Made by a program: the position numbers and the translations under genes. From Bifidobacterium italicum (lineage in GTDB: Bacteria; Actinomycetota; Actinomycetes; Actinomycetales; Bifidobacteriaceae): DNA of 64,000 bases. The stretch lies in assembly GCF_002286915.1 (NCBI RefSeq), contig NZ_MVOG01000009.1, positions 1-64,000 of the forward strand, read 5' to 3'. Positions 1,703 to 29,764 of this stretch are shown in pieces; positions within the stretch are counted from its first letter, which is position 1, and each line of letters begins with the position of its first letter. The notes under the pieces were generated by a model that was not told the origin of the DNA, made no database searches, and was given only the letters and a program-made list of their open reading frames with translations.

Positions 1703-2524
1703 ATGCAGTATTTCGAGACCACGATCGCCGGCATCGACGGCACCGACGCGCGCTTCGCCGGCTACATCCCCGACAACTATCCGGACATCGACCCCGATCG
1801 GCGCCGCCCGGCCGTCCTCGTGCTGCCCGGCGGCGGCTACGAGATGACGACCGGCCGCGAGGGCGAGCCGATCGCGTTCCGATTCCTCGCGCACGGCTGC
1901 GACGCCTTCGTGCTGCACTACTCATGCAAGCCGTCCGTCTACCCGACCGCCGTGCTCGAGGTGGCCGAGGCGGTGCGGCTGATGCACAAGCACGCCGACG
2001 AATGGCACGTCGACACGTCGCGCATCGCCGTCATCGGTTTCTCCGCCGGCGGCCATCTCGCCGCCGACTTCGCGACGAGCGCCTCCGACGACGTGATGCG
2101 CGCCCACGGCTACGATCCGGACATGCTGCGACCGGCCGCGCTGATGCTGTCCTACCCGGTCATCAGCGCCGGCGGACACCGCCACGACGGCAGCTTCCGC
2201 GCACTGCTCGGCGAGCGCTACGCCGACCCCGACATGATGCGCGAGGTCTCGATCGAGGAGCATATCGACGCGAAGACGCCGCCGGTCTTCGTCTGGCACA
2301 CGGTGCCGGACGACTGCGTGCCGGTCGAGAACACGCTGCTGCTCATCGCCGCCTGCAAGGCCGCGGATGTGCCGATCGAGGCGCATCTGTTCCCGACCGG
2401 CGGACATGGCCTGTCGCTCGCGACGGCCGAGACCGCATGGGGCGGCACCGACGGCATCGAACCCGGCGTCGACGTCTGGCCGTCCCTCGCCTTCCGGTGG
2501 CTCGACCGCGTCTTCGCGCGCTGA
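1703..2524 (+). CDS. Alpha/beta-hydrolase, acetyl-esterase-like
   Basis: Cytoplasmic alpha/beta-hydrolase of the BD-FAE / acetyl-xylan-esterase-like type, 273 residues and no signal peptide. Visible motifs are the oxyanion-hole strand VLVLPGGGYEM (about residues 35-45), the nucleophile elbow GFSAGGH (about 113-119), the acid in a VPDDCVPVENT segment and the catalytic His in GGHGLS. The start is fixed by AAAGGAG seven bases or so before ATG. It stands directly before a TetR regulator and beside a presumed xyloglucan-oligosaccharide operon on the other strand. Since plant xyloglucan carries O-acetyl groups on galactose, a deacetylase role is plausible. The substrate is inferred from position only. 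Confidence 0.75.
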   Translation: MQYFETTIAGIDGTDARFAGYIPDNYPDIDPDRRRPAVLVLPGGGYEMTTGREGEPIAFRFLAHGCDAFVLHYSCKPSVYPTAVLEVAEAVRLMHKHADEWHVDTSRIAVIGFSAGGHLAADFATSASDDVMRAHGYDPDMLRPAALMLSYPVISAGGHRHDGSFRALLGERYADPDMMREVSIEEHIDAKTPPVFVWHTVPDDCVPVENTLLLIAACKAADVPIEAHLFPTGGHGLSLATAETAWGGTDGIEPGVDVWPSLAFRWLDRVFAR

Positions 2525-2687: not shown

Positions 2688-3494
2688 ATGATGACAGTCG
2701 CCGCATGGCAGCAGATCCTCGACCAGCATGGCATCTCCAACGAGCCGCGCAAACCACTGCTCGCCTCCCATGAGGTCACGGTGCGCGACACGACCTCCGG
2801 CAAGCGCTTCGTCAAGCGCAAGCGCATGAGCCAGGAGGAGCGGCATCTGCAGATCCTGCGCGCCGCGTCGAAGACGATCGCCGTCAAAGGCTACTGGGGC
2901 ATGTCGCTGCAGGACATCTCGGACGAGATCGGCATCAGCGAGGCCGCGCTCTATCATTACATCGACTCCAAGGAGGACCTGCTGCACATGGTGCTCGCGG
3001 AGGGCTACGACACGACCGAATCGAACGAGTTCGCCGCGCTGAGCGCTTCCGCGGTCGACGGCGACGGCCACCGCATCTACTGCTATCCGCGCTACTGCCT
3101 AAACACGGTGCTGTACAACATGCAGCGTCCGGAGATGATCCAGCTGTTCTGCGTCCTCAGCGGCGAGGCGCTCAACCCCGACCATCCGGCCCACCGTTTC
3201 TTCACCGGCCGCCATATGCGGCTGTGGGAGATGGTCGGTTCTATGAACTGGCTGCTGCCGCGCGGCATGACCGAGGAGCGCTTCTTCGACCTGTTCACGC
3301 TCGCGCAGTCGGCGATGGACGGCCTGCAGCAGCGCTGGCTCGCCGACGAATCGATCGACCTGCTCGAGGAATGGGTGCGCTTCAGCGACGTCATCTTCCC
3401 GCGCACGACATGGGAGGGCTGTTACGACCCGTCGGAGCTTGACGCCGGCGACACGCGCTGCCTGCTGCCGTACACGCTGCAGGAGCTCGGCTGA
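2688..3494 (+). CDS. TetR family transcriptional regulator
   Basis: DNA-binding regulator of 268 residues. The helix-turn-helix lies in a segment near residues 55-95 (ILRAASKTIAVKGYWGMSL, then DISDEIGISEAALYHYIDSKE), preceded by an unusually long basic N-terminal tail of about 45 residues. The start at 2688 is supported by AAAGGA before a tandem ATGATG; an open frame further upstream has no ribosome binding site. The C-terminal ligand domain resembles that of the second TetR protein of this window (minus strand near 52.5 kb), including a shared ending pattern EEWVRFSDVIFP / DEWLAFERMIFP. It converges with the ROK gene 13 bases away. It probably controls the neighbouring glycosidase and importer genes. 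Confidence 0.82.
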   Translation: MMTVAAWQQILDQHGISNEPRKPLLASHEVTVRDTTSGKRFVKRKRMSQEERHLQILRAASKTIAVKGYWGMSLQDISDEIGISEAALYHYIDSKEDLLHMVLAEGYDTTESNEFAALSASAVDGDGHRIYCYPRYCLNTVLYNMQRPEMIQLFCVLSGEALNPDHPAHRFFTGRHMRLWEMVGSMNWLLPRGMTEERFFDLFTLAQSAMDGLQQRWLADESIDLLEEWVRFSDVIFPRTTWEGCYDPSELDAGDTRCLLPYTLQELG

Positions 3495-3507: not shown

Positions 3508-4446
3508 TCAGCGCGCGCCGACGGCGAGCGTGTCTCCGACGCCGCCGCCTTCGACGACCTCCTCGACGAACATGTAGTAGGCGCCGATGAGACCGGCGTT
3601 GCCGCTGTGGCGGCAGCGTCTGATCCGCGTCTTGAACGGCTTCCAGTCGCGGATCGAGTCCAATGCGTCCTCGAGCATCGGCACAAGCGCCGGCTCGCGG
3701 CTGATGCTGCCGCCGATGAGCACGATCTGCGGGTCGACGGCGACGACGGTGTTGAAGACGCCGACCGCCACGTAGCGCAGCCACCGTTCGACGATCGCGC
3801 GCACGCGCGGGTCGTCGAGCTTGTGGAACAACGTGCTCGGCAGGATGTCGCCCGCGTTGACGCCGAATTCGTCGGCGTACCATTGCGAGAGCTTCATCGT
3901 CGAGACGAAGTCGTGCAGCGGCAGCGCGCCGGAGGAGTCGTAGTTGATGATCATCGCGCCGAGTTCGCCGGCCCGCCAGTCCTTGCCGCGGCGCAGCCTG
4001 CCGTCGAGGAACAGCGCGCCGCCCATGCCCATGTCGAGCGTGAAGAGCACGAAGTCGTCGCATTTCCTCGCGTTGCCGGTCATCTTCTCGGCCATCGCCG
4101 CGCAGTTCGCGTCGTTCTCCATCCATGTGGGGATGTCGACGCCGAGCCGCGCCGTCAGTTCGGCGCCGATGCGCTGCTTGTACAGGATGCGCAGCGCGCC
4201 GGCCGTCTCCGCCGTCTGCGTGCGCGGATTGATGAATCCGGGCATGCTGATCGCGATGCCGTCGAGCCGCACGTCGAGTTTGCGCACGACCTGCGCGAGC
4301 ACGTCGTAGAATTCGTCGGGATCGGTGTTCGGCGTCGCGAAGGTGCCGGGTATGCCCATCCGTCCGTCGGTGAACAGTGCGTACCGCGTGAAGTTCGTGT
4401 TGATCTCGAACGCGAGCACCTGATGTGCGCCACTCCGTTTCGTCAT
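3508..4446 (-). CDS. ROK family protein with degenerate ATP loop and no zinc motif
   Basis: ROK-fold protein of 312 residues without a helix-turn-helix, so of the sugar-kinase rather than repressor type. The catalytic segment WMENDANCAAMAE is intact. The N-terminal phosphate-binding loop, usually D-x-GGT-K, reads FEINTNFT. The Cys-rich zinc motif (CxCGxxGCxE) that normally follows the AGELG segment is absent; AGELGAMIINYDSSG is found instead. Start chosen at the ATG preceded by GAAAGGCAG rather than the earlier ATG at 4476. It is the last gene of the operon, 87 bases after the GH42 gene. It could be a kinase for glucose released from the oligosaccharide, or a catalytically altered family member. 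Confidence 0.75.
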   Translation of the reverse strand: MTKRSGAHQVLAFEINTNFTRYALFTDGRMGIPGTFATPNTDPDEFYDVLAQVVRKLDVRLDGIAISMPGFINPRTQTAETAGALRILYKQRIGAELTARLGVDIPTWMENDANCAAMAEKMTGNARKCDDFVLFTLDMGMGGALFLDGRLRRGKDWRAGELGAMIINYDSSGALPLHDFVSTMKLSQWYADEFGVNAGDILPSTLFHKLDDPRVRAIVERWLRYVAVGVFNTVVAVDPQIVLIGGSISREPALVPMLEDALDSIRDWKPFKTRIRRCRHSGNAGLIGAYYMFVEEVVEGGGVGDTLAVGAR

Positions 4447-4533
4447 CGATCGCTGCCTTTCGTCCGTCATCGCCAATTGTACCGACGACGTGCCGATATC
4501 GGCCGGGGTGGTCCGTGTCCCGGCCGATGCCGT

Positions 4534-6567
4534 TCATCGGGCCGGCGCGGCGACGGGCACGCCGTCCTCGAACAGCAGCACGGCGAAGGGGTCGAGCACG
4601 ATCCGTCCGCCGTCCTCACGCTCCCATACGCGCGTTTCATCGCCGGTGTTCGTCACGATCGTGTACACGGTGCCGTCGTCGCCGACACGGCTGGCGACCT
4701 CGACGTCGTTGGGCGCGTCGATCGTCGCGACGCCGGCGGCGTGCAATACGTCGTCGAAGAGCGCGTCGATGCCGTCCTCGTCGAGCGCGGTGCCGACGAA
4801 GATCGCGCGGCCGTCGCCGACGTCGTGCGCGGTGACGGCCGGCGTGCCCGCGTAGAAGTCGTCGCCGCCGTAGGTCGCGAGCGTGCGCGCGCCCTCCGGT
4901 TCGATGATGCTCGCGACGATCTCGCCCGCGCAGTCGACCGCCGCGCCGTCGCCGACGTCGAGCCGCACCGGCACGTTCGCGCCGGGCGCGACCGCGTCGA
5001 TCTCCTCGACCCAGACGCCGCACAGGCCGCGCAGTGGCCCCGGGTAGCCGCCTTCGACGACGAGGTCGTGCTCGTCGTGGATGCCGGACATGTATCCGGT
5101 CACGAGGACGCCGCCGCCTTCGACGTAGCGTTCGAGGTTGTCGGCGACGCCCGGCTTGACCATGATCAATGTCGGCGCGACGACGAGGTCGTATCGCCGC
5201 AACGTCTCGAGGTCGGCCGTGCTTTCGATGACGTCGACGGCGACGTTGCGCTTCCACAGCGCCCGGTAGAAGCGGTGCACCTCGTCCGGGTAGCGCAGCC
5301 CCTGCGTCGGTCCGACGCAGCCTTCGAGCGACCAGTAGTTCTCCCAGTCGAAGACGACGGCGACCTTCGCGTCGACATGCGATCCCATGATGCGCTTCGC
5401 GCGTGCGGCGACGTCGGCGCCGAGAGCCGCGACCTCGCGGTACGTGCGCGAACGGTCGGAGTCGTCGTGGCCGATGACGGCGCCGTGGAAGCGTTCGCAG
5501 CCGCCGACCGACTGCTTGAGCTGGAAGAACTGCACGGTGTCGGCGCCGTGCGCGACCGCCTGCCAGCTGAGCTTGCCGACCTCGCCGGGACGCTTGACCT
5601 TGCAGTACGGGAACCAGTTCTGCTGGTTCGGCGTCTGCTCCATCAGCATGAACGGCCTGCCGCCGCCGACGCCGCGCATCAGGTCGTGGCACATCGCCGT
5701 GAAGCTCGGCTGCGTGTCCATGCCCGGATAGTTGTCCCAGCTGACGACGTCCATCTCGCGGCCCCATGCGAAGTAATCGAGGTCCTTGAACGTGCCCATC
5801 AGGTTCGTCGTGATCGGCGTCGAGGCGTCGGACTCGCGGATCGCGTCGCGCTCGAGGCGGAAGCAGTCGAGCATCTGCTCGTTCTGGAAGCGGCGGTAGT
5901 CGATCTGCAGCCCCGAGATCACGCATTTGTCGGTGCCGATGCCGTCGCCGTAGGTGACCGGCGGCACGACCTCGTCGAAATCATGGATCGTGTGGCTCCA
6001 GAAGTTCATGCACCAGGCGCGGTTGAGCGCGTCGACGGTGCCGTAGCGCGCACGCAGCCAGTTGCGGAAGGCGGCCGCGCAGGTTTCGCAGTAGCAGTAG
6101 CCGCCGCCGTTGCCGTACTCGTTGTTGACGTGCCATGCGACGAGTCCCGGATGCCCCGCGTAGCGGCGCGCGACGGCCGAGGCGAGCGCCCGCGCGCGTT
6201 CCCGGTACTTCGGCGAGCTCGGACAGAAGTTGTGCCGGCCGCCGAAGACCTGCTGCGTGCCGTCGACGCCCTTGCGCATCACATGCGGGTAGCGGCGCGC
6301 CATCCACGCCGGCACGGCGGCCGTGCCGGTCGCCATGACGATGCGCACGCCGTGCCGGTCGAGCGACGCGACGATCGCGTCGAGCATCGAGAAGTCGTAG
6401 TCGCCCTCGCTTGGTTCGAGCAGCGCCCACGAGAACACGTTGATCGTCGCCTCGTTGATGTGCGCGCGCCCGAGCAGTTCGAGGTCGTGCTCCCAGCTCT
6501 CCTGCGGCCACTGTTCGGGGTTGTAGTCGCCGCCGAACAGGAAATCGCCGAACATGGCCGTCATCAT
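4534..6567 (-). CDS. GH42 beta-galactosidase
   Basis: Intracellular beta-galactosidase of glycoside hydrolase family 42, about 677 residues. The N-terminus FLFGGDYNPEQWP opens the catalytic barrel. The acid/base Glu is in WHVNNEYGNGGG and the nucleophile Glu in MLMEQTPNQQNW. Four Cys typical of the zinc site are present (one in HNFCPSSP, three in YCYCETC). The middle trimerisation domain and a short C-terminal beta-domain follow, ending QLFEDGVPVA-like. AAGGAG precedes a tandem ATGATG at 6567/6564. In this operon (fucosidase, beta-glucosidase, alpha-xylosidase) its likely task is removing beta-1,2-galactose from xyloglucan side chains, although many bifidobacterial GH42 enzymes act on galacto-oligosaccharides. 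Confidence 0.93.
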   Translation of the reverse strand: MMTAMFGDFLFGGDYNPEQWPQESWEHDLELLGRAHINEATINVFSWALLEPSEGDYDFSMLDAIVASLDRHGVRIVMATGTAAVPAWMARRYPHVMRKGVDGTQQVFGGRHNFCPSSPKYRERARALASAVARRYAGHPGLVAWHVNNEYGNGGGYCYCETCAAAFRNWLRARYGTVDALNRAWCMNFWSHTIHDFDEVVPPVTYGDGIGTDKCVISGLQIDYRRFQNEQMLDCFRLERDAIRESDASTPITTNLMGTFKDLDYFAWGREMDVVSWDNYPGMDTQPSFTAMCHDLMRGVGGGRPFMLMEQTPNQQNWFPYCKVKRPGEVGKLSWQAVAHGADTVQFFQLKQSVGGCERFHGAVIGHDDSDRSRTYREVAALGADVAARAKRIMGSHVDAKVAVVFDWENYWSLEGCVGPTQGLRYPDEVHRFYRALWKRNVAVDVIESTADLETLRRYDLVVAPTLIMVKPGVADNLERYVEGGGVLVTGYMSGIHDEHDLVVEGGYPGPLRGLCGVWVEEIDAVAPGANVPVRLDVGDGAAVDCAGEIVASIIEPEGARTLATYGGDDFYAGTPAVTAHDVGDGRAIFVGTALDEDGIDALFDDVLHAAGVATIDAPNDVEVASRVGDDGTVYTIVTNTGDETRVWEREDGGRIVLDPFAVLLFEDGVPVAAPAR

Positions 6568-6584
6568 GCAGCTCCTTTGCATAA

Positions 6585-6606
6585 GGGCGGCCGCCGTCGG
6601 CCGCCC
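6585..6606 (-). other. Intercistronic hairpin between GH31 and GH42 genes
   Basis: Perfect 9-bp GC arms (GGGCGGCCG / CGGCCGCCC) with a 4-base loop, placed between the GH31 stop and the GH42 ribosome binding site. There is no T-run, so an mRNA-processing or partial-attenuation role is more likely than termination. Confidence 0.45.
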
Positions 6607-6633
6607 GGATCATCTTGTCGGTCTATCGTCTGA

Positions 6634-8664
6634 TCACATGTTGCGAGGGTCGGCTCCCGGGCGCACGAGCACCGGCAGCGCGTGGTAGTCGTACCGTTCG
6701 ACGTACCAGCGTCCCGGCTCGTATTCGGTGCCGGTGATCAGGTTGCGCCACGGGGCGTCGTCGCCGGCGTCGGGCACGTAGAAGCGGGCGACGCCCTCCT
6801 CGTTGAAGATCGGAGCGACGAGGATGTCCGAGCCGAGCATGTACTGCGTGTCGATGTCCTCGCACGTCGGGTCGTCCTGGAACTCGAGCACCATCGCGCG
6901 CATCATCGGCACGCCGGTCTCGTGCGTCTGCACGGCCATCCTCTCCAGATACGGGCGCAGCGAGTCCTTGAGCTCGACGAACTCGCGGCAGACGTCGACG
7001 GCCTCGTCGCCATACAGCCACGGCACCTTGTAGGCGGTCGAGCCGTGGTAGCGCGAATGCGAGCTGAGCAGGCCGAACTGCGTCCAGCGCTTGTACAGGT
7101 CGGGCGTCGCCTGGTCCTCGAAGCCGGCGATGTCGTGGCTCCAGTAGCCGAAGCCGGACATGCCGAAGGACAGGCCGGCGCGCAGCGATTCGGCCATCGA
7201 CGGATAGTTCGACGAGCAGTCGCCGCCCCAATGCACCGGGTAGCACTGGCCGCCCACCGTCGCCGAACGGGCGAACAGGATCGCCTCGTCGGCGCCCTTC
7301 GTCTCGACGAGCACGTCGTAGACGGCCTTGCTGTACAGCAGCGTGTAGTAGTTGTGCATGAGCTCGGGATCGGAGCCGTCATAATACCGCACGTCCTCGG
7401 TCGGGATGCGCTCGCCGAAGTCGGTCTTGAAGCAGTCGACGCCCATCGCGACGAGCTTCTTCAGATAGCCCTGATACCACGCGACGGCGTCCGGGTTCGT
7501 GAAGTCGACGATCGCCATGCCGGCCTGCCACTTGTCCCACTGCCACACCGAGCCGTCGTTGCGCTTGATGAAGTAGCCGTTCTTCGCGCCCTCCGCGAAC
7601 AGCGGCGACTTCTGGCCGATGTACGGGTTGATCCAGACGCAGACCTTGAGGCCGCGCTCATGCAGCTTGGCGAGCAGGCCTTCCGGATCCGGGAACTTCG
7701 ACTCGTCCCAGGCGAAGTTGCACCATTCGAGTTCCTTCATCCAGCGGCAGTCGAAGTGGAAGACGGACAGCGGGATGTCGCGCTCGGCCATGCCGTCGAC
7801 GAAGTCGAGCACAGTCTGCTCATCGTAATCGGTCGTGAAGCTCGTGCTCAGCCACAGGCCGTAGCTCCAGTCCGGCACAAGTGGCGCGCGGCCGGTCAGC
7901 GCCGTGTAGTTGGCGAGAATCTCCTTCATGTCGGCGCCACCGATCACCGAGTAGCTCATCTCCTGCCCGGGCACGCTGAACTGCACGCGCGAGACCTTCT
8001 CGGAGCCGATCTCGAACTCGACTTTGCCCGGGTTGTCTACAAACAGGCCGTAGTTCCTGTTGCTCATGTAGAACGGCACGTTCTTGTATGCCTGCTCGGT
8101 GCCGGTGCCGCCGTCCTCGTTCCAGATCTCGACCGACTGGCCGTTCTTGACGAAGTTCGTGAAGCGTTCGCCGAGGCCGTAGATCTTCTCCCCGACGCCG
8201 AGATCGAGCTGTTCGGAGACGTGCAGCACGCCGCTCGGATCGGTCACGAGCGCCTTGGCGCGCCATCCGGAGTGCGCAATCCGCTTGCCGTCGTACAGGT
8301 AGGTGAAATCGATCGTCTCACCCTTGGCGATGCGCAGTGTGAGCTTGCCCGAGGTGAACAGCCATGCCTCGTCGCTCTCCTCGACGCTCACCTGCGGCGA
8401 CGTCTCGTTCAGCGCGAACGTGGGCTTGTGCGAACGGTCCTCGCGGAAATTGATCAGACGCGTCGTGATGATGTTCTCGCGCGGGCTCGTCACCTCGATC
8501 GTCAGAATGCCGCCGTCGAGCGTCATGCCCGGGTTGTAGATGGGCGAGCCGAACGGGCAGAACAGCGTGAGTTTGTCCGCCTCGATGTCCGCCGTGTAGA
8601 TGTTGGCCGCGTACTTGACGTCGAAACCGTCTTTGATGAGCCATCCGCCGTTGAGGAACTTCAT
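6634..8664 (-). CDS. GH31 alpha-xylosidase (YicI type), C-terminally short
   Basis: Intracellular alpha-xylosidase of family GH31, which removes the non-reducing xylose from xyloglucan oligosaccharides. The N-terminal beta-domain starts MKFLNGGWLIKDGF, like E. coli YicI. In the barrel, KTDFGERIP holds the nucleophile (Asp415) and HWGGDCSSNYPSMAESLR the acid/base (Asp482), almost the same positions as YicI Asp416 and Asp482. KTDFGERIP is the signature that separates alpha-xylosidases from alpha-glucosidases. The protein is 676 residues; YicI has 772. It stops right after ALPVLVRPGA with five extra residues, so the distal C-terminal beta-domain is missing. AAGGGAG precedes the ATG. Confidence 0.92.
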   Translation of the reverse strand: MKFLNGGWLIKDGFDVKYAANIYTADIEADKLTLFCPFGSPIYNPGMTLDGGILTIEVTSPRENIITTRLINFREDRSHKPTFALNETSPQVSVEESDEAWLFTSGKLTLRIAKGETIDFTYLYDGKRIAHSGWRAKALVTDPSGVLHVSEQLDLGVGEKIYGLGERFTNFVKNGQSVEIWNEDGGTGTEQAYKNVPFYMSNRNYGLFVDNPGKVEFEIGSEKVSRVQFSVPGQEMSYSVIGGADMKEILANYTALTGRAPLVPDWSYGLWLSTSFTTDYDEQTVLDFVDGMAERDIPLSVFHFDCRWMKELEWCNFAWDESKFPDPEGLLAKLHERGLKVCVWINPYIGQKSPLFAEGAKNGYFIKRNDGSVWQWDKWQAGMAIVDFTNPDAVAWYQGYLKKLVAMGVDCFKTDFGERIPTEDVRYYDGSDPELMHNYYTLLYSKAVYDVLVETKGADEAILFARSATVGGQCYPVHWGGDCSSNYPSMAESLRAGLSFGMSGFGYWSHDIAGFEDQATPDLYKRWTQFGLLSSHSRYHGSTAYKVPWLYGDEAVDVCREFVELKDSLRPYLERMAVQTHETGVPMMRAMVLEFQDDPTCEDIDTQYMLGSDILVAPIFNEEGVARFYVPDAGDDAPWRNLITGTEYEPGRWYVERYDYHALPVLVRPGADPRNM

Positions 8665-8748
8665 GATTTCTCCCTTGGTTGTCTGTGGATTGGTTGATGT
8701 GGTTGATGTGGTCGCCCGATGGATTGGCCGCCGGCCGTCCGGCGCCGC

Positions 8749-10878
8749 CTAGCCGATACGCCCTTCGAGGCGCAGGTCGCCGACCGATTCGCCGACGTGC
8801 AGCCGCGCCGCCGGCGCGAGCGCGAACGCCCCCGCCTTGGTGCTCCAGTAGCGCAGCGCCTCGTCTCGCGGCAGCTCGATCGTCACCTGACGGCGTTCGC
8901 CCGGCTCGAGCGCGACCTTCGTAAAGCCGCGCAGTTCGAGCGCCGGACGGTCCTCGCCGGTGCCTTCGAGCGTGACGTAGAGCTGCGGCACCGCCTTGCC
9001 GGCGCGCTCGCCGGTGTTCGTCAGATGGAAGTCGAGGCGGATCATGTCGTCGATCGCACGCACCTGCAGGTCGCCGTAGTCGAAGGTCGTGTAGCCCAGG
9101 CCGTGCCCGAACGGGAAGAGCACCGGCACGTCCTTCGTCTGGTAGTAGCGGTAGCCGACGTAGATGTCCTCGGCGTAGTCGACGTGGCCTTCGAGGCCGA
9201 AGGTGCCGATCGAGTTCGCCGGGCAGTCGGCCAGGCGCACCGGGAACGTCTCGGGCAGGTGCCCGCTCGGGTTGACCGCGCCGAACAGCGTCTCGGCGAG
9301 CGCGAAGCCGCTTTCCATGCCGTTGTACCAATTCCACACGATCGTCGAGGCCTTGGGCTGCCAGGGCATCTCGACCGGCGATCCGGCGACGAACACGAGC
9401 ACGGTGTCCGGGTCGATGTCGAGCAGGCCGTCGATCAGCGCGTCCTGGTCGTACGGAAGCCCCATGCCCTTGCGGTCGTAGGCCTCCAGGTCGTGGTCGT
9501 GGTTGAGGCCGCCGACGAAGATGATCGGGTCGCCGCTCGCCGCGAAGTCGCGGGCCAGCGCGAGGGCCTCGTCGCGCAGCCGCCGGGCGCGTTCAGCCTC
9601 GTCGGCCGACTTGTCGGCGGCGTTCTCGAGGCTGTCCTCCTGCCAGGTGTCGTTCTGGTTGACCTGCGGGGCGTAGTAGCCTTCGGCGTAGGTGATGTCG
9701 ATGTTGCCGCCGACGAAGCCGTTGATGCCGTTGAGCGGCGAGATCTCGTGGATCGCCTTGATGACGGCGGAGCCGCCGCCGAGCGAATGGATGCGGTCGG
9801 CGTTGGCGCCCACGATCAGCAGGCGCGAGATGGCGGAGCGGTCGAGCGGCAGCACGTCGTGGTCGTTGCGCAGCAGCACGATCGATTCGCGGGCGATGTC
9901 GAGCGTCTTGGCCGTGTGCCCGATCGTCGCGTAGGAGCCGGCCTTGCGGCCCTTGCGCGCGTCGTCGAGCATCTTGAGCGCGTCCATGACGGCGAGCACA
10001 TGCTCCACCTTCTCATCGACGAGCGACTCGGCGATCTCGCCGGCCTTCACGGCTTCGAGCAGCGGACGCCCGAAGCGGTAGTCGTCGAAATCGTAGGTGA
10101 CGTTCATGTCGACGTCGATGCCGACGACGGCGCTTTTGGCGGTGTCCTTGATGCCGCCCCAGTCCGACACGACGAGCCCGTCGAAGCCCCATTCGCGGCG
10201 CAGGATCCCGTCCAGCAGCATCGGGGATTCGCAGCACTGCCGCCCGTTGACCTTGTTGTAGGCGCCCATGATCGTCAACGCGCCGGCGTCCTGCACCGCC
10301 GATCTGAACGCGGGCAGGTAGATCTCGCGCAGCGCGCGTTCGGAGATCGTCTCATCGACCTCGAGGCGGTCGGTCTCCTGGCTGTTGGCCGCGTAGTGCT
10401 TCGGGCAGGCGGCCACGTCGGACAGCTGCACGCCTTCGATGTAGGCGTCGCCCTGCACCGCCGTGAGCACCGGGTCCTCGCTCATGTACTCGAAGTTGCG
10501 TCCGCACAGCGGCGAGCGCTTGATGTTGAGCGACGGCCCCAGGATCACGTCCTTGCCGCGCCCGCGCGCCTCCTCGCCGAGCACGCGCCCGGTCTCGAAC
10601 GCGAGCGCCGGGTTCCAGGTCGACGCCACGGCCGATCCGGACGGCAGGTAGCACACCTCGTCGCGCGTGTTGTGCCGGGGCGCCCAGTTGTCGTCGTAGG
10701 TGTCGGCGCGCACGCCCATCGGGCCGTCGTCGAACACCATCTCGGGGATGCCGAGCCGGGGCACGGCGGCCGTGTGGAACAACGCGGCGCCGTGGATCAT
10801 GCCGATCTTCTCCTCGAGCGTCATCTGCTGCGTCAGCTCGCGGGCCTTACGCTTGTTCGCCTCGCTGATCATCGTCAT
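8749..10878 (-). CDS. GH3 beta-glucosidase
   Basis: Cytoplasmic family 3 glycosidase of 709 residues with the usual order: barrel domain, alpha/beta sandwich, C-terminal fibronectin-III-like domain. The nucleophile is Asp239 in FDGLVVSDWGG. Substrate-pocket segments KHYAANSQE and the KRSPLCGRNFEYMSEDP stretch are typical of beta-glucosidases. FPFGHGLGYTTFDYG marks the entry to the Fn3-like domain. AAGGAG sits seven bases before ATG. It lies 49 bases after the GH29 gene and 84 before GH31. In a xyloglucan pathway it would trim unsubstituted glucose from the backbone, alternating with the alpha-xylosidase. Confidence 0.92.
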   Translation of the reverse strand: MTMISEANKRKARELTQQMTLEEKIGMIHGAALFHTAAVPRLGIPEMVFDDGPMGVRADTYDDNWAPRHNTRDEVCYLPSGSAVASTWNPALAFETGRVLGEEARGRGKDVILGPSLNIKRSPLCGRNFEYMSEDPVLTAVQGDAYIEGVQLSDVAACPKHYAANSQETDRLEVDETISERALREIYLPAFRSAVQDAGALTIMGAYNKVNGRQCCESPMLLDGILRREWGFDGLVVSDWGGIKDTAKSAVVGIDVDMNVTYDFDDYRFGRPLLEAVKAGEIAESLVDEKVEHVLAVMDALKMLDDARKGRKAGSYATIGHTAKTLDIARESIVLLRNDHDVLPLDRSAISRLLIVGANADRIHSLGGGSAVIKAIHEISPLNGINGFVGGNIDITYAEGYYAPQVNQNDTWQEDSLENAADKSADEAERARRLRDEALALARDFAASGDPIIFVGGLNHDHDLEAYDRKGMGLPYDQDALIDGLLDIDPDTVLVFVAGSPVEMPWQPKASTIVWNWYNGMESGFALAETLFGAVNPSGHLPETFPVRLADCPANSIGTFGLEGHVDYAEDIYVGYRYYQTKDVPVLFPFGHGLGYTTFDYGDLQVRAIDDMIRLDFHLTNTGERAGKAVPQLYVTLEGTGEDRPALELRGFTKVALEPGERRQVTIELPRDEALRYWSTKAGAFALAPAARLHVGESVGDLRLEGRIG

Positions 10879-10927
10879 TGCCGATCTCCTTCATTCACTT
10901 CGTCATGGTCTGCGGGTCTTGGTGCGG

Positions 10928-12491
10928 CTAGCCGATATGCAATCGGAAGCCGATCGGAGGCGCGGGCTCACCGCCGTTTTGGCCGGTACGGCGCAATCGC
11001 GGCGGCAGCGGCAGATGCAGGCCGTCTTCACGCCGTTCGAAATGCGCCGGGCCTTCGCCAAGCAGCTCGACGCCGGTGATGACGCCGTTGAAGGCCGGCC
11101 GGTGTTCGCCGTCGAAGGCCGCGAAGGTACGGCAGACGAGCTCGTCGGCGCCGGCCGGGTTCAGGCAGAAGCAGTAGAGGTCGCCGTCACGGGTCGTGAA
11201 GCGCCAGTCGTCGGCGGTCCACGGCGTCGGCTCCTGGTCGGCGAACATGCCGGTCTGCGGCTTCGTCGGGCCTTCGCCGCTGATACGCCACGGACGGCTG
11301 CCGTAGATGCCGTCGCCGTTCGCCGCGAGCCAGTCGCCGATGCCTTCGAGCAACGTGCGGTCGCGGTCGTCGATCGAGCCGTCGGCGCATGGGCCGACGT
11401 TGAGCAGCAGGTTGCCGTCCTTGCTCACCGCGTCGATCAGGCTCACGAGCAGCTCGGGCAGCGTCTTGTAGTCGAGCGAGTCGGTGTGGCACCACGAGTT
11501 GCGCGCGATCGCCGTATCGGTCTGCCAGACGAAGGGCGTCGCATCGGCGAATCCGCCGCGTTCGACGTCGACGATGCCGGCGCCCCATGCGAGCGCGTCG
11601 TATTTGTAGCAGATCGCGGCGTCGAGGCCACGCGCGGCCATATGGTCGTAGTAGTAAGGCGGCGAGCCGGCGCAGATACGGCTTGAACGCGCGGTGCTGC
11701 ACCCACCAGTCGAAGTAGAGCAGTTCCGGCAGATACATGTCGATGATCTCGACGTTGCGCGCGAACCAGTCGTCGAGGAATTCCCTGCTCGGCGCGGGAC
11801 GGGAGTCGATGTCGAATTCGTTCGGCTCGGGCGTCATGGCCGGCCAGTAGAAGTCGCCGCGTCCCATCGGCTCGCGCACATCGGAGTCGAAGGCGCGGCC
11901 GTGCCCCATGAACCACCAGTGTTCGGCGCGGTGGTTCGACGTCGTGAACCGCAGACCGTGCGCGATCGCGGCGGCGCGCAGTTCGCCGAGCACGTCGCGG
12001 CGTGGGCCCATCTCGGCGGCGTTCCAGCGCGACAGCCGGCTGCGGTACATCTGAAATCCGTCGTGGTGCTCGCTCACCGGCATGACGTAGCGCGCGCCGG
12101 CGCGGGCGAACAGCGCGCACCATGCGTCGGCGTCGAAGGCCGGCGCCGTGAACATCGGGATGAAGTCCTTGTAGCCGAAGTCGCGCTGCGCGCCGTAAAC
12201 GGCGCGGTGGTGGTCGAATTCCGGGTAGCCTTCGATGTACATGTTGCGCGAATACCATTCGTTGCGGTATCCGGGCACCGTGTACGGCCCCCAATGCGTG
12301 AAGACGCCGAACTTCGCGTCGGCGAACCATGACGGATCGCGGTGCGCGGCGAGCGACGCCCATGTCGCGTCATAGGGGCCGGCGGCGATCGTCGCGTCGA
12401 CGGCGCAGGCGTCGGGCGTCGCGGCCGCGTCGAGTTTCGCCCCGCCTTCGGGCCGGCCTGTGGCATTCGGCTTCGTCGTGTCGTCCATCAT
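10928..12491 (-). pseudogene. GH29 alpha-L-fucosidase, broken by a frameshift
   Basis: Family 29 alpha-L-fucosidase. The first 278 or so residues are read in one frame (GVFTHWGPYTVPGYRNEWYS, SEHHDGFQMY, HRAEHWWFMGHGRA and the nucleophile Asp261 in LLYFDWWVQHRAF). The rest, DHMAARGLDAAICYKYD through NLLLNVGPCADGS, continues in a second frame. The break is at about 11657, where one extra T on the coding strand precedes three TAC codons. Without it the protein would read LAA-YYYDHMAARG and be about 520 residues. The nucleophile lies before the break, but the domain containing the usual acid/base region is lost. GGGGAG precedes a tandem ATGATG. First gene of the glycosidase block. Confidence 0.85.
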
Positions 12492-12594
12492 CGCACTCTC
12501 CCCTTCCCTGTTCTTTGTTCTTCGCCGTCTGCTGGCGCTGCGGGCGCCCAGCGGCCGCCGGACGTGCGCCGTCGGCCGCGACTGTCACATCCAA

Positions 12595-12617
12595 TTTGGT
12601 TCGATGATCGAACCAAA
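12595..12617. promoter_or_regulatory. 23-bp perfect palindrome, probable operator of the glycosidase operon
   Basis: Eleven-base arms TTTGGTTCGAT and ATCGAACCAAA flank one G. It lies 104 bases before the GH29 start and after the importer lipoprotein gene on the minus strand, exactly where a control point for the glycosidase block would be. Length and symmetry fit a TetR, GntR or LacI site. The local candidate is the TetR regulator at 2688. Confidence 0.6.
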
Positions 12618-12745
12618 CGGTGATTCGCAGGGAGCGCCGCATCCCGACGGATGCGACGTTCCCGCGCCGATGGCCGCCGACGCCCGCCGACGGCGGCGAC
12701 CTTCAGTTGCTCAGTTGTGCCGCAAGGAGACGGCGCCCCGGAGTG

Positions 12746-14512
12746 TCACTCCTTGTCCGCGTACTCCTTGACGATCTCCTGACGGGCCTTGATCAGCGCC
12801 TTCGCGTTGTCCTCGTCGACCTTGAGCACCTGCGCGTAGCCGAGGTCGTTGAGCTGCGTGCCCATGTTCTTGAAGGTCGACTGGCATTCGGCCTCGGTCT
12901 TGGCGACGACGGCCTGCCACGACGCGTTGATCACTTCGGTCTTGACCGACGAGCGCAGCGTCGAGATCTGCGAGTCCTCCTCCGGAGGCGTGTAGGTCGC
13001 GCCCGGCGCGACGGCGAGCTTGCCGGCCTTCTCGAGGTATTCGATGTCGGTCTTCGCGCCGCCCATGTGCTTCGACCAGTCCTCGCTCAGCTTCGTCTGC
13101 TTCGCGAGCTGGGTCGCCCACAGCTGCGGGTTGAACGCGGACTTCGTGTCCGGATCGGTGCTGTTCGCGTTCACCGTCTTGAAGTTGAGCGTGGAGATGC
13201 CGTCGTTGTAGGAGCCTCCGCCGTATTCGGCCGGCACCTGCAGACCGTCGGAGTTGAACATCGCCTTCTCGCCGAACTCGTTGAGCTGCGGCTCGCCCTT
13301 GTCGTTGAGCGTCCAGCACATCTCCTTCGGGCATGCGGCGCCGCCCGAGTTGGCCGCCGAGGCGTAGATGCCCTCGGGCGAGTAGAGCCAGTCGATGAAC
13401 TTCGCGAGGCGTTCCTTGTTCTTCGCCTTCGAGCCGATCGCGATGAAGGTGTTGCCGTCGCCCTCCGGCTGGAAGCCCGGCGTGTAGACGTCCATGTCCT
13501 GCAGCGGGGCGAGCATGAAGCCGACGCCCTTCTCCTGGTTCTCGTTGCCGTTCATGCGCGGCTTGCCGAGCCACGACCAGATCGACATGAGCACCTTGCC
13601 GTTCGTCACCTTCGTCGACAGGTTGTCCCAGTTCTGCGTCGTCGATTCCGGGTCGACGAGCCCCATGCGGTCGCACTTGTTGAAGAACTCGATCATCTTG
13701 TCGTAGGCGCTGCCGACCTGGGAGGCCGGGACGATCTGCGAATCCTTGTCGTCGGACGGCACGAGCACCGAATTCTGCGCGAAGTAGCCGTACCACTGCG
13801 AGGCGGCCATCGCGTTCTGCATCATCTCGCCGTCCCAGTCCTTGAACAGCGACACGGCGTAGATGTCGTCGTCGCCGGTCTCCTCGCGCGCCTTGTCCTG
13901 CATCTGCTTGAGCACGTCCGCGAAACCGTCGAGATCCTTGATCTCGGGGTACCCGATCTTCGCGTAGTAGTCCCAGCGGATGTACGGGGCGGCGGCCGGC
14001 TCGATGCCGTCGGCGGACTTCGTCGGCGATTCGTCGGACACGTTGCCCGGCACGCCCCAGACGCCGTCCTGGCCGGCCTGCTTCGTCACGTAGTCCACGC
14101 CGGCCTGGTAGCGCTTGACGTTCGTCATCTTGCCGTAGTACGGCGTCATGTCGGTGATGAGCTTCGACTTGACGAGCTTCTGCAGACGGCCGTTCTGCAT
14201 GCCGACGATGACGAGGTCGCCGAGGTTGCCCGCCGTGGAACGCGTGTCGAACAAGGTGTCGCCGCCGCCGGCCACGTTCGGGGCGATGATGTTGAGCTCC
14301 ATGTTGAACTTGTCCTTGACGATCTTGGCGAACCAGCCCTTCTGGACGCCCTGGTAGTTCGCGGTCGACGAGAACACGTCCACCTTCATGAAGCTGCCGT
14401 CGTCGGGGCCGTCGCTCGCGGAGTCGTTGCCGCCGCAGGCCGCGACGGAGACGAGCATCGCCGCCGAAAGCGTCGCGGCGATTCCCGAGACGATCTTCTT
14501 CCTGATTTCCAT
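12746..14512 (-). CDS. Extracellular oligosaccharide-binding lipoprotein, Lpl type
   Basis: Substrate-binding lipoprotein of a carbohydrate ABC importer, 588 residues. The signal peptide MEIRKKIVSGIAATLSAAML ends in a lipobox with Cys at VSVAAC (about residue 26). The long mature domain is of the LplA-like kind that pairs with LplB/YtcP permeases and binds complex oligosaccharides. AAGGAGG precedes the ATG by seven bases. It is third in its operon, behind both permeases, with no ATPase gene nearby; bifidobacteria usually use a shared ATPase encoded elsewhere. Its position directly before the glycosidase genes suggests it captures the oligosaccharide they degrade. Confidence 0.9.
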   Translation of the reverse strand: MEIRKKIVSGIAATLSAAMLVSVAACGGNDSASDGPDDGSFMKVDVFSSTANYQGVQKGWFAKIVKDKFNMELNIIAPNVAGGGDTLFDTRSTAGNLGDLVIVGMQNGRLQKLVKSKLITDMTPYYGKMTNVKRYQAGVDYVTKQAGQDGVWGVPGNVSDESPTKSADGIEPAAAPYIRWDYYAKIGYPEIKDLDGFADVLKQMQDKAREETGDDDIYAVSLFKDWDGEMMQNAMAASQWYGYFAQNSVLVPSDDKDSQIVPASQVGSAYDKMIEFFNKCDRMGLVDPESTTQNWDNLSTKVTNGKVLMSIWSWLGKPRMNGNENQEKGVGFMLAPLQDMDVYTPGFQPEGDGNTFIAIGSKAKNKERLAKFIDWLYSPEGIYASAANSGGAACPKEMCWTLNDKGEPQLNEFGEKAMFNSDGLQVPAEYGGGSYNDGISTLNFKTVNANSTDPDTKSAFNPQLWATQLAKQTKLSEDWSKHMGGAKTDIEYLEKAGKLAVAPGATYTPPEEDSQISTLRSSVKTEVINASWQAVVAKTEAECQSTFKNMGTQLNDLGYAQVLKVDEDNAKALIKARQEIVKEYADKE

Positions 14513-14629
14513 GAGGAAACCTCCTTGTATCCTTCTAACTTCGGCTCATCGCTGAGCACATCTGGTTGGTTGGTGGTTGGTACGGAAACGTGGATCGGGG
14601 CGGGGAGCCGCACGGCTCCCCGCGTACGG

Positions 14630-15586
14630 TCAGCCCTTGACAGCGCCGAGCATCATGCCCTTGACGAAGAAGCGCTGGAAGAACGGGTAGATGAACATGA
14701 TCGGCAGGACGACGATGACGGAAACGGTCATGCGGATCGCCGTCGGCGTGGCCGCCGTGGCCAGCAGCGCGGCGTTCGCGGCGTTCGCCTTGACCGAGTT
14801 CGCGATCGAGCTCGCTTGGTTGATGTAGGTGTAGAGCAGGTACTGCAGGCTCCACAGCTTCGAATCGGTCATGTAGATCAGCGTGTCCTGGAACGAGTTC
14901 CACTGGTTGACGGCGGAGAAGATCGCCACCGTCGCGAGGATCGGCGTGCACATCGGCAGCACGATCTTCCAGAACACCGTCATCGTGCCGGCGCCGTCCA
15001 CCTCGGCCGCCTCCTGCAGCGACGACGGGATCGACTCGATGTAGGTCTTGACGAGGATGATGTTGAACGGCTGCACGATCGCCGGCAGGATGTAGACCCA
15101 GAAGTTGTTCGTCAGGCCGTAGTTCTTCATCGTGATGAACATCGGGATCAGGCCGGCGTTGAAGTACATCGTGATGACGACGAAGCGGTACCAGAACGAG
15201 CGCTTCCACATCTTCTGCTGCGTGAACATGAAGCCGAGGTAGGCGGAGGCGAGCACGGTGAGCACGGTGCCGATGACGGTGCGGGCCACCGAGATCCACG
15301 CGGACTGCGCCAGGCCGTCGAGGCCGAGCACGGTCTTGTAGTTGTCCCAGTGCAGGCCCTCGATCCTCCAGGTGACATCGCCCGCGGCGGCCGCCTGGTT
15401 GTTCGACAGCGAGTTGATGATCAGGTAGTAGAACGGGTACGTGCAGATCAGCGCGAACAACGTGAGGATGATGATGTTCACGACGTTGTAGATCTTCTCG
15501 CCCTTGGTGCGGCGCATGGCCGGGGAGACGCTCGCCTTGGCCCTCCTCGGCTTCTTGGCGGTCGCAGGTGCTGTTGCGGTTGTCAT
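14630..15586 (-). CDS. ABC importer permease, YtcP/MalG type
   Basis: Inner-membrane permease of 318 residues with six predicted membrane segments. The ATPase-docking EAA loop is visible as SLQEAAEVDGAGTMTVF followed by WKIVLPM. The Lys/Arg-rich cytoplasmic N-terminus ends before segment IYNVVNIIILTLFALICTYP. The C-terminus FFVKGMMLGAVKG is typical of the downstream permease of CUT1 importers. It is the second gene of a three-gene operon, 42 bases after the first permease. Confidence 0.92.
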   Translation of the reverse strand: MTTATAPATAKKPRRAKASVSPAMRRTKGEKIYNVVNIIILTLFALICTYPFYYLIINSLSNNQAAAAGDVTWRIEGLHWDNYKTVLGLDGLAQSAWISVARTVIGTVLTVLASAYLGFMFTQQKMWKRSFWYRFVVITMYFNAGLIPMFITMKNYGLTNNFWVYILPAIVQPFNIILVKTYIESIPSSLQEAAEVDGAGTMTVFWKIVLPMCTPILATVAIFSAVNQWNSFQDTLIYMTDSKLWSLQYLLYTYINQASSIANSVKANAANAALLATAATPTAIRMTVSVIVVLPIMFIYPFFQRFFVKGMMLGAVKG

Positions 15587-15628
15587 GGTAACTCCTTAAA
15601 AACCTTGAACCTTGTCGATTGCCGGGGA

Positions 15629-16693
15629 TCAGACGATGCCCACGCCGCGCGTGCGCTTGGACAGCCAGTTGACGAGCAGCAGCAGGCCGACCGAGACGAG
15701 GGACTTGAGCATCGAGATCGCGGTGCCGAGCGACAGGCTGTTCTGGCCCATGCCGACGTTGTAGACGTAGAGGTCGAGCACCTGGATCCACTTCTGGTTG
15801 AAGGCGTTCTGGAAGACGTAGTACTGGTCCATGCCGTTGTTGAGGAAGTTCGAGATAGACAGCATGAGCAGCACGAAATAGGTCGGCATCAGCTGCGGGA
15901 TCGTCACGTGGATGATCTGCTGGAAGCGGTTCGCGCCGTCCACCTGCGCGGCCTCGTAGAGTTCGGGGTCGATGCCGGCGATGCCCGCGAGGTACATGAT
16001 CGAGCCCCAGCCGAGACCCTTCCACAGGTTCCACAGCAGCATCTTGAGCCAGACCTGGTCGGGCGAGTCGAGGAACTTGATCGGTTCGCTGATGATATGC
16101 AGGTTCTGCAGCAGGTCGTTGACCATGCCGGTCGACGAGAACATCGCGAAGGCGATCGAGTAGACGAGCACCCAGGAGATGAAGTTCGGCAGCGTCGTCA
16201 GCGTCTGGATGAGGTTCTTGAACCATTTCGCGCGGATCTCGTTGAGCGCGATCGCGAAGATGACCGGCAGGAACGACGTGAGGATGTTGAGGCCCGACAT
16301 CGCGAAGGTGTTGAGCAGCACCTGGCCGATCGTGCGCAGCTGCGCCGGGTTCTGCACCATCATCTCGAACCACTGCAGGCCGACGAACTTGCTTTCGGAC
16401 AGCGGGATCGGCGGCTGGTAGTCGTAGAACGCGTAGATCCAGCCGAACAGCGGGACGTAGCTGAACAGGAACACGAGAATCAGCAGCGGGGCCACGTACA
16501 GCCACAGCTTGAACGCATGGCGCTTGTCCACATGGGCTTCGGCGGCCATCTTCGCCGCCTTCTTCGCGGCGCGACGGTCGCGACGGCTCAGTTTGGATCC
16601 CTCGGCGGCCTCGACTTCCCTACCGACGACGGCCGCGGCGCCACCTGTTAAGCCGATGGTCTCATCGGTTTCGGTGCTAGACGACGTCTGCAT
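15629..16693 (-). CDS. ABC importer permease, LplB type
   Basis: First permease of the importer, about 354 residues. A long charged N-terminal tail (Glu, Arg and Lys rich, residues 1-65) precedes six membrane segments. The EAA loop reads ELYEAAQVDGANRFQQIIHV. The start at 16693 is set by AAAGGAGG four bases before ATG; a longer frame to 16738 has no ribosome binding site. It opens the minus-strand operon and is transcribed away from the yesL-like gene, with a strong promoter in the shared intergenic region. Confidence 0.9.
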   Translation of the reverse strand: MQTSSSTETDETIGLTGGAAAVVGREVEAAEGSKLSRRDRRAAKKAAKMAAEAHVDKRHAFKLWLYVAPLLILVFLFSYVPLFGWIYAFYDYQPPIPLSESKFVGLQWFEMMVQNPAQLRTIGQVLLNTFAMSGLNILTSFLPVIFAIALNEIRAKWFKNLIQTLTTLPNFISWVLVYSIAFAMFSSTGMVNDLLQNLHIISEPIKFLDSPDQVWLKMLLWNLWKGLGWGSIMYLAGIAGIDPELYEAAQVDGANRFQQIIHVTIPQLMPTYFVLLMLSISNFLNNGMDQYYVFQNAFNQKWIQVLDLYVYNVGMGQNSLSLGTAISMLKSLVSVGLLLLVNWLSKRTRGVGIV

Positions 16694-16769
16694 CTCTCCT
16701 CCTTTGGAAACTGATGTCAGCGATTCCAAGTCCCGCAACCTCGCGAGGCTTTCTCACTTCTTGTTGAAT

Positions 16770-16798
16770 AGATTATAAACAACGGATTCGTTTGTCAA
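16770..16798 (-). promoter_or_regulatory. Promoter of the Lpl-type importer with an overlapping dyad
   Basis: On the minus strand TTGACA (16798-16793) is followed after 15 bases by TATAAT, or after 17 by TAATCT. Between the boxes lies a near-palindrome ACAAACG-AATC-CGTTGTT, so a repressor bound there would block RNA polymerase. Further upstream, GCGACA (16911-16916) and TGTCGC (16926-16931) form a second, weaker dyad. Confidence 0.55.
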
Positions 16799-17159
16799 AT
16801 CAGATAACGAAGTGCCGCCGCGCGGCGATTTCCCGCCTCCGGAAGCAACGGAGGCCACATACGCTTCCCTGTGGGCTGAAATCATTTTGCGCTGGAACGA
16901 CAGCGTTTCCGCGACACGCAGACACTGTCGCAGTAGACAACATCATTTCTTATTTATATACTTATCAACAAAAGTCGATGTGGACACATAGCCAACCAGC
17001 CGTCCCCACGCCGTTCGACCAGACGACATGCATCGGCATGCAGACATACATATATGTCACCAGACGCGATACGGATACGGCGGATGGACGGCGCGATCGC
17101 ACGGTCCGCGTCGCAGCATGGCCGCGGCGACGCGGCACAGGAAGGAAAAGGAAGCAGCC

Positions 17160-17813
17160 ATGAGGTTCAACACGGAAGCGCCGTTCTGGCAGTTCATGGG
17201 AACGCTCGCGAGATTCACCGCGCTCAATCTCGTCTTCCTCGTCACGCTGCTGCCGATCGTCACGATCGGACCGGCGCAGGCGGCGCTCTACAGCACGCTG
17301 TTCCAATACGACGAGCATGACGACATCAGGCTCGTACATGAATACCTCAAGCGCTTCAAGCGCGAATTCAGACAGGGGCTCATCTCCGGGCTGCTGCTGC
17401 TCGCGCTCGTCGCCGCGCTCGTCTTCGGCCTCGCGTTCTGGGTGGCCTGGGACACCGACGCCGCCTACGTTCCGCTGATCGTCCTCGTCGCCGCCACGGT
17501 CGCCGTGCTGTTCCTCGCCGAATACCTCTTCCCGCTGCAGGCGCGCTTCGACAACTCGATCGGCCGCACCTGGAAGCTCGCCGCGATGTTCCCGTGGCGC
17601 GCCTTCGCCTGCTCCTTCGCACTCGTCGGCATCGACGTCGTCGCGCTCGGGCTGGCCTATTTCATCCCGTTCATCCGCGTGCTCATGCTCATCTTCGGCA
17701 TGAGCTGGGTCGCCTACGCGAAGTCGCTCGTCCTGCTGTGGGGCTTCCGCAAGTACGGCGGCTACGGCGAGGTCGAGCGCCCCACCTTCGTGAACGCCAA
17801 CTCCGGGCTGTGA
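17160..17813 (+). CDS. YesL-like (DUF624) membrane protein
   Basis: Small integral membrane protein of 217 residues, family DUF624/YesL. Members accompany Lpl-type oligosaccharide importers in Firmicutes and actinobacteria; the function is unknown. The N-terminal signature is FWQFMGTLARFTALNLVFLV; four or five hydrophobic segments follow. The start is given by AAGGAAG before ATG at 17160. It is transcribed divergently from the importer operon and shares its 466-base regulatory region. Confidence 0.8.
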   Translation: MRFNTEAPFWQFMGTLARFTALNLVFLVTLLPIVTIGPAQAALYSTLFQYDEHDDIRLVHEYLKRFKREFRQGLISGLLLLALVAALVFGLAFWVAWDTDAAYVPLIVLVAATVAVLFLAEYLFPLQARFDNSIGRTWKLAAMFPWRAFACSFALVGIDVVALGLAYFIPFIRVLMLIFGMSWVAYAKSLVLLWGFRKYGGYGEVERPTFVNANSGL

Positions 17814-18998: not shown

Positions 18999-19412
18999 CT
19001 ACGCGGCGTGAGGGGTCAGGTCAGCCATCGACACTTGCCCGGGACGGCCGGTCAGCCGCGTGTAGCACTCGAGGATCCGCTTCGGCGTCGATCCGTAGAT
19101 CGCACAGAAGTCGATCGTCTCGTCCGGGGCCGAGCACCGCACGTCCTCGGCGTCGACGGCGTCCACTTCGAAGGAGACGCGGCCGCGGTCGTTAACGAAG
19201 ACACGGCGACCACCGCCCGTCATAGAGAACGGGATGTCCTTGCACCGCCGCTCGGAGGCGGTGCCGACGTCCGCGTTCCAGATGCCAACGCTCTGGCCGT
19301 TCTTCACAAACGCGGCGAATCGCGCATCCAGTCCATAGACGGTCTCGCCGACGCCGCGCAACAGCCGGACCGACTTGAACCCGTGCGATCGGTCCTTCGC
19401 GAGTCCCGTCAC
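18999..19412 (-). pseudogene. Remnant of a second GH31 glycosidase
   Basis: A 137-codon frame that matches the N-terminal beta-domain of GH31 enzymes. GVGETVYGLDARFAAFVKNG aligns with GVGEKIYGLGERFTNFVKNG of the intact alpha-xylosidase at 6634-8664, and the homology runs through the counterpart of ALTGRAPLVPDWSYG (TRLTGRPGQVSMADL). It then stops, with no catalytic barrel. Homology begins near 19373. The codons just before it, and a second frame up to about 19510 (DYMSVVTHGDGEFGVM), look coding but do not align, so another gene fragment may be joined there. The copy is divergent, so it is an old paralogue rather than a recent duplicate. Confidence 0.75.
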
Positions 19413-24739: not shown

Positions 24740-24757
24740 TGTACAATCTCTCCGTAC

Positions 24758-24788
24758 ATTGTATTGAATCGCCATACCGCGGTATGGC
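24758..24788 (-). promoter_or_regulatory. Putative promoter and 18-bp palindrome upstream of the SGNH gene
   Basis: GCCATACCGCGGTATGGC (24771-24788) is a perfect palindrome. On the minus strand it lies just before a -10-like TACAAT (24763-24758), at the place of a -35 box. No -35 is visible, which would suit an activator site. A second short palindrome, ATTGTACAAT, overlaps the start codon (24738-24747). Confidence 0.45.
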
Positions 24789-24821
24789 ATCGCTTCGCGG
24801 TCGACGATGAGGTCGCCCGCC

Positions 24822-29641
<4,820 letters not shown>

Positions 29642-29764
29642 GCTATCTCCTTGAACTATCGAATCATAAAAGATGAATTAAAATAAAGGAAATACGTGGC
29701 CGCTTGATTTCCATTGCATGGTTTCCCATACGCGGCCACGTACGTGCAATAGCTGCTATCCCCG

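Follow-up and report, generated by a model that had tools for sequence, protein, structure and literature searches.

The 64,000-nucleotide stretch of Bifidobacterium italicum DNA analysed here (contig NZ_MVOG01000009.1, positions 1 to 64,000; hereafter the window) belongs to the 2.28-Mb genome of a gut bifidobacterium and carries a cluster of genes for the uptake and cytosolic breakdown of oligosaccharides. The minus strand carries, between 16693 and 3508 and in this order, genes for ATP-binding cassette (ABC) permeases A and B, a solute-binding lipoprotein, glycoside hydrolases (GH) of families 29, 3, 31 and 42, and a ROK kinase. Esterase and TetR regulator genes lie on the plus strand, as does the gene for a YesL/MusI-like membrane protein, which diverges from the importer (Table 1). 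A sequence-only reading had proposed a xyloglucan-oligosaccharide utilisation locus at 3508-17813. Our profile matches bear out its gene order, strands and family calls for the importer, GH3, GH31, GH42, esterase and TetR, as well as its view that the glycosidases lack signal peptides: no signal-peptide-like stretch was seen at the N-terminus of any glycosidase of the locus, including the GH3 and GH42 that share an operon with GH31. The genes within the proposed span are real, but the ROK kinase at 3508-4476 had been overlooked, and the gene ending at 17813 is the plus-strand membrane protein, which stands outside the importer operon.

Glycosidases and predicted substrate

On the strength of its genes, we consider it very probable that the locus encodes a scavenging pathway for xyloglucan oligosaccharides, the substrate best supported by the YicI-type GH31, by the correspondence with a gene set in Ruminiclostridium cellulolyticum, and by enzymes of the GH5-CBM46 type (CBM, carbohydrate-binding module) in sister species. 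The GH31 protein matches the NCBIfam alpha-xylosidase model PRK10658 at 1140 bits (cut-off 606) and the structures of Escherichia coli YicI at E = 1e-245. Its motifs for nucleophile and acid/base, KTDFGE and WGGDC, are intact, the first of them within the KTDFGERIP signature that had originally been taken to mark an alpha-xylosidase. By assignment, then, the protein is a YicI ortholog and an alpha-xylosidase rather than an alpha-glucosidase, shorter than YicI in that the last ~100 residues are missing.

The B. italicum set of ABC importer, GH31, GH3 and GH42 equals that of Ccel_2451-2458 in R. cellulolyticum, a biochemically proven xyloglucan-oligosaccharide cluster whose binding protein holds XXXG with a dissociation constant (KD) of 3.65 nM, and in which intact oligosaccharides are imported and hydrolysed stepwise in the cytosol, GH31 and GH3 leaving cellobiose (PMC4780118). 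A binding protein, in B. italicum a predicted one, accompanies the importer in both systems; an associated two-component system and cellulosomal endo-enzymes are features of the R. cellulolyticum cluster's own. In addition, the AlphaFold model of the B. italicum binding protein (predicted local distance difference test, pLDDT, 88) has as its nearest folds FusA, Blon_2347 and AlgQ, all large-oligosaccharide binding proteins, at template modelling (TM) scores of ~0.55. This modelled likeness fits large oligosaccharides in general, without naming a ligand.

A number of observations weigh against the xyloglucan assignment. A PDB sequence search found no solved relative of the binding protein, and sequence cannot tell the specificities of GH42 and GH3 within their families, the nearest solved relatives of the latter being bacterial GH3 enzymes, mostly beta-glucosidases. 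An exo-alpha-L-galactosidase is among the nearest solved relatives of GH29, whose frame is moreover broken in the assembly. An intact fucosidase is an optional component outside the R. cellulolyticum core set. Finally, GH31 has Arg at the position of YicI Phe308, as do the bifidobacterial orthologs of the locus; the equivalent residue is Leu in Lactobacillales-type proteins and Phe, as in YicI, in Paenibacillus types, and Cys at YicI position 307 is retained in the bifidobacterial enzymes. YicI residues 307-308 presumably affect the preference for xylosidase versus glucosidase activity, and the Arg might tune the acceptor site of GH31.

The assignment of an alpha-fucosidase gene to the operon holds for the GH29 family and fails for a single open frame. 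Relative to B. choerinum, one extra base at ~11657, where the minus strand reads ...gccgccttactactacgaccat..., splits the gene into two frames (11187-12491 and 10928-11641). The GH29 frames of relatives are open across the insertion point in 31 of 31 cases (two of these frames are truncated where the locus ends), and both B. italicum halves are under constraint, with a ratio of nonsynonymous to synonymous substitution rates (dN/dS) of ~0.2 against B. choerinum, so that the frameshift is either recent or an assembly error. The two assemblies also differ by single-base indels elsewhere, for example inside the B. choerinum binding-protein gene, which makes sequencing error a live option. No second GH29 was found in the B. 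italicum genome (other fucosidase families were not searched). With GH29 frameshifted in the assembly, the fucosylated part of the substrate claim (XXFG) is doubtful for this strain.

One alternative is that the whole locus is decaying and non-functional in this strain. A remnant of a second YicI-like GH31 lies nearby (19044-19373, minus strand; 45% identical, residues 150-259 only) and seems largely deleted, since B. choerinum has a longer second GH31, ~12 kb upstream of its first. In B. criceti, the importer, GH29, GH3 and the 5' end of GH31 have apparently been lost, with GH42, ROK, TetR and esterase kept, and the locus of that species appears, from its gene content, to be a decaying version. 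Both observations would sit well with decay, as does the frameshift. However, the B. italicum genes other than GH29 are all intact (dN/dS 0.03-0.33 against B. choerinum) and the GH29 halves remain constrained, which argues against decay and leaves it very unlikely.

Table 1. Features of the B. italicum locus, in window coordinates
Feature	Position	Strand	Evidence
Esterase (alpha/beta hydrolase, BD-FAE/acetyl-esterase type), first gene of esterase-TetR unit	1703..2524	+	Pfam BD-FAE 72 bits
TetR-family regulator, candidate BgrT-type repressor of locus	2688..3494	+	TetR/HTH matches
ROK-family sugar kinase (glucokinase or beta-glucoside-kinase like)	3508..4476	-	Pfam ROK 103 bits
GH42 beta-galactosidase, cytosolic, proposed to remove beta-1,2-galactose	4534..6582	-	Pfam 479 bits
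GH31 alpha-xylosidase, YicI type	6634..8664	-	PRK10658 1140 bits; GH31 328 bits
GH3 beta-glucosidase, cytosolic	8749..10878	-	Pfam GH3 N, C and Fn3-like domains
GH29 alpha-L-fucosidase gene, broken by 1-nt insertion	10928..12491	-	Two frames, each matching Alpha_L_fucos
Solute-binding lipoprotein of ABC importer	12746..14512	-	SBP_bac_1; signal peptide with lipobox
ABC permease B	14630..15586	-	BPD_transp_1
ABC permease A, first gene of importer operon, start chosen at MQTSSS	15629..16693	-	BPD_transp_1
Predicted operator 2, overlaps permease A promoter region	16760..16783		19 bits with motif learned from relatives
Predicted operator 1, divergent intergenic region	16949..16972		33 bits
YesL/MusI-like membrane protein, divergent from importer	17160..17813	+	NCBIfam MusI family 67 bits, under cut-off 160

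Conservation and variation among relatives

GH31 orthologs with at least 68% identity occur in 30 of 112 Bifidobacterium genomes, B. italicum included, and the majority of loci from the named collection have the importer, GH29, GH3 and GH42 next to GH31, in the same order. Among the named genomes of that collection, B. choerinum is the nearest relative, with 91% identity across 18 kb of nucleotide sequence. The B. asteroides type from the bee gut retains GH31 but not the other cluster genes. The esterase and TetR genes are both kept beside the locus in relatives, and the YesL/MusI-like gene is a conserved divergent neighbour of the importer. Enterococcus and related clusters combine the same importer (permeases 60-72% identical) with GH29, ROK and GH31, to which some add GH1 as well as xylose isomerase and xylulokinase. 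For permease B, identity is 75-99% in the Bifidobacterium relatives and reaches 72% in Enterococcus.

Insertions in the loci of bifidobacterial relatives include GH43, a GDSL esterase and a cellobiose phosphorylase. The locus gains a cytosolic GH5_4-like enzyme in B. moukalabense and others, and a secreted GH5-CBM_X2-CBM46, an enzyme of the xyloglucan-active GH5_4 type, in B. tsurumiense and B. canis. BlCel5B and BhCel5B, which share this architecture, are active on xyloglucan and beta-glucan, with BlCel5B reaching 34 U/mg on beta-glucan versus 15.7 U/mg on xyloglucan (PMC4817029). CBM46 was detected in 4 of 112 Bifidobacterium genomes, in every case 2.1-6.9 kb from a locus-type GH31.

That GH5-CBM46 enzymes such as BlCel5B cut beta-glucan too (PMC4817029), and that regulators of the BgrT kind typically govern beta-glucoside genes and cellodextrin phosphorylase (PMC4746261), could be taken to indicate a broader importer of beta-glucan or cello-oligosaccharides, with GH31 serving only isoprimeverose or other small alpha-xylosides. 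Plain beta-glucan, however, offers no role for GH42, GH29 and GH43, which are nevertheless conserved with the importer (GH29 across genera), and we judge such a broader role to be unlikely.

It is more doubtful still that the locus serves host glycans, with GH29 and GH42 acting on fucosylated, galactosylated milk or mucin oligosaccharides. Milk-glycan pathways do use GH29 and GH42, and ~7 kb past the locus the same window has the start of an operon (24822-30718, minus strand) for lacto-N-biose phosphorylase, with further genes for an APH-type kinase, a uridylyltransferase-like protein and an ABC permease. Alpha-xylose, however, is not known to occur in milk oligosaccharides. The nearest solved structure to GH42 is 3TTS (704 bits), the bifidobacterial 4UNI scoring far lower (361 bits); the locus genes that were scanned included neither a GH20 nor a lacto-N-biosidase; and relatives add the plant enzymes GH5-CBM46, GH43 and GH94, some with the same operator. 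For these reasons we rejected the milk-glycan reading as extremely improbable and retain xyloglucan oligosaccharides as the predicted substrate.

A shared palindrome as predicted operator

Upstream of permease A, relatives carry a 24-bp palindrome, CTTATTTATAAA-TTTATAAATAAG. When 25 loci were scanned with a weight matrix trained on the relatives' loci, the B. italicum window being left out, 64 sites scored at least 17 bits, and 63 of these lay just upstream of cluster genes (importer, GH31, GH94, TetR, esterase, ROK, GH42 or secreted GH5). The secreted GH5-CBM_X2-CBM46 gene of B. canis, for instance, carries the same operator as the locus. The 64th site is also in the B. canis locus (positions 12372-16225 of that locus), before a pair of surface-protein-like genes, one encoding a SpaA domain, just upstream of the gene for the secreted GH5-CBM46. 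Exactly two matches, of 33 and 19 bits, occur in the 64-kb window, and both fall between the divergent genes, ahead of the importer; the top score in 100 simulated sequences of 64 kb was 6.7.

The operator also occurs outside the window. On another B. italicum contig, a 21-bit site lies 49-73 bp before the start of a cellobiose phosphorylase (GH94) gene, identified by PDB homology (1064 bits to 2CQS); an NCBIfam search named no family for it. A pattern search of the genome for the palindrome recovered the sites in the window and the one at GH94, the remaining matches being at chance level (8 matches with up to 3 mismatches in a reversed-pattern control). An early operator guess, AACGnnnnCGTT, which overlaps the permease A promoter, was dropped, being conserved only as far as B. 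choerinum. On contig C45 (115324-115409), two copies of a palindrome-like TTATTGATAGTTTGTATCAATAA stand 63 bp apart upstream of a Fic-like gene and are by score unrelated to the locus operator.

As in regulons of the BgrT type, the palindromic operator lies upstream of the target genes and is conserved across species. BgrT regulators use palindromes of 18-22 nt and are encoded near cellodextrin phosphorylase, and their beta-glucoside regulons resemble the B. italicum locus in having TetR beside glycosidase genes, palindromic operators and, on the BgrT side, a cellodextrin phosphorylase neighbour (PMC4746261). That 2016 text names neither xyloglucan nor xylosidase, and the BgrT-type placement of the B. 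italicum TetR is a candidate one. Orthologs of the TetR gene have the operator before them or before the divergent GH94 gene, and a TetR of the BgrT kind is the natural candidate for the palindrome's repressor. A LacI protein found at the locus in three relatives, instead of or beside TetR, speaks against this, so that we can only infer TetR as the regulator. With modest confidence, we lean towards a regulon in which one BgrT-like TetR and the 24-bp operator join import and cytosolic debranching to the unlinked cellobiose phosphorylase and, in certain species such as B. canis, to a secreted GH5-CBM46. Xyloglucan use would then be an accessory trait, present in roughly one in four Bifidobacterium species, with the fucosidase lost at strain level.

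Proposed pathway and precedents

From the genes, their conservation and linkage, and the palindrome, we infer a substrate, an order of cuts and a repressor as follows. Fragments such as XXXG and XLLG would be released by other microbes or, to a small extent, by a secreted GH5 endoglucanase of the cell itself, and the binding lipoprotein and the two permeases would import them whole with a shared ATPase presumably encoded elsewhere. Cytosolic GH29 would take off fucose (a step probably broken in this strain) and GH42 beta-1,2-galactose, and GH31 and GH3 would act in turn from the non-reducing end; O-acetyl groups would be stripped by the esterase. Leftover cellobiose would pass to the cellobiose phosphorylase encoded elsewhere in the genome, and free sugars to the ROK kinase and to xylose isomerase, the gene for which is present in B. 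italicum. A TetR repressor, probably of the BgrT kind, would act at the palindrome before the importer operon and the cellobiose phosphorylase gene. An operator at the latter fits the cellobiose left by GH31 and GH3 in R. cellulolyticum (PMC4780118).

The earlier statement that no endo-xyloglucanase is present holds for the window. Genome-wide, one secreted GH5 lipoprotein, closest to Bacillus endoglucanases, is encoded on another contig, and no GH9, CBM46 or GH74-type propeller was found in the genome (GH44 was searched without a positive control; GH12 and GH16 were not searched). Given this complement, the cell most likely depends on oligosaccharides freed by others.

The view that xyloglucan use is no textbook bifidobacterial trait has to be qualified, the trait being known in the genus from earlier work. 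XG-1 xyloglucan islands were predicted in the marmoset bifidobacteria MARM_A1, B. myosotis and B. hapali (mBio 2021, PMC8406136); they match the B. italicum locus in genus, in predicted function and in having a beta-glucosidase, an alpha-xylosidase and an alpha-fucosidase. Strains of B. callitrichos also grow weakly on cranberry xyloglucan (optical density 0.16; PMC6096940). The B. hapali locus, which by species and gene content would be an XG-1 island, is orthologous gene by gene to that of B. italicum; it differs in having GH43 and operators before GH31, esterase and TetR, whereas the B. italicum locus is more compact and has a frameshifted GH29. Arzamasov et al. are said to have reported, in 2025, xyloglucan gene clusters in Bangladeshi Bifidobacterium longum. 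The idea is thus not new, and B. italicum is a well-supported further example. Since the island had been predicted before, the gain lies in regulation, distribution and testable detail rather than discovery; the operator and its regulon, the CBM46 linkage and the fucosidase frameshift were not found described in the literature searched.

Among the sugar chains of plant cell walls, xyloglucan is a major one, and fruit and vegetables are rich in it. That about a quarter of Bifidobacterium species share a cytosolic pathway suggests that oligosaccharides freed by primary degraders are taken up selfishly. The secreted GH5-CBM46 variants, for their part, suggest an ability of a few species to attack the polymer on their own. 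The operator, in turn, provides a sequence marker for the whole regulon.

Some minor observations concern the locus and its surroundings. Two family matches fell under their NCBIfam cut-offs, namely those of the esterase to the lp_1002 arylesterase (187 bits, cut-off 300) and of the ROK kinase to BglK (138 bits, cut-off 550). Compared with B. choerinum, the window shows mosaic divergence (8500-12500): the importer and much of GH31 are 95-99% identical, and GH3, part of GH29 and GH42 only 78-93%, which suggests recombination within the locus. Beyond it, at 21917-25174 on the minus strand, a large predicted surface protein has a laminin-G-like part and a GDSL/SGNH esterase domain, along with a long Rib domain and, at its C-terminus, a membrane anchor.

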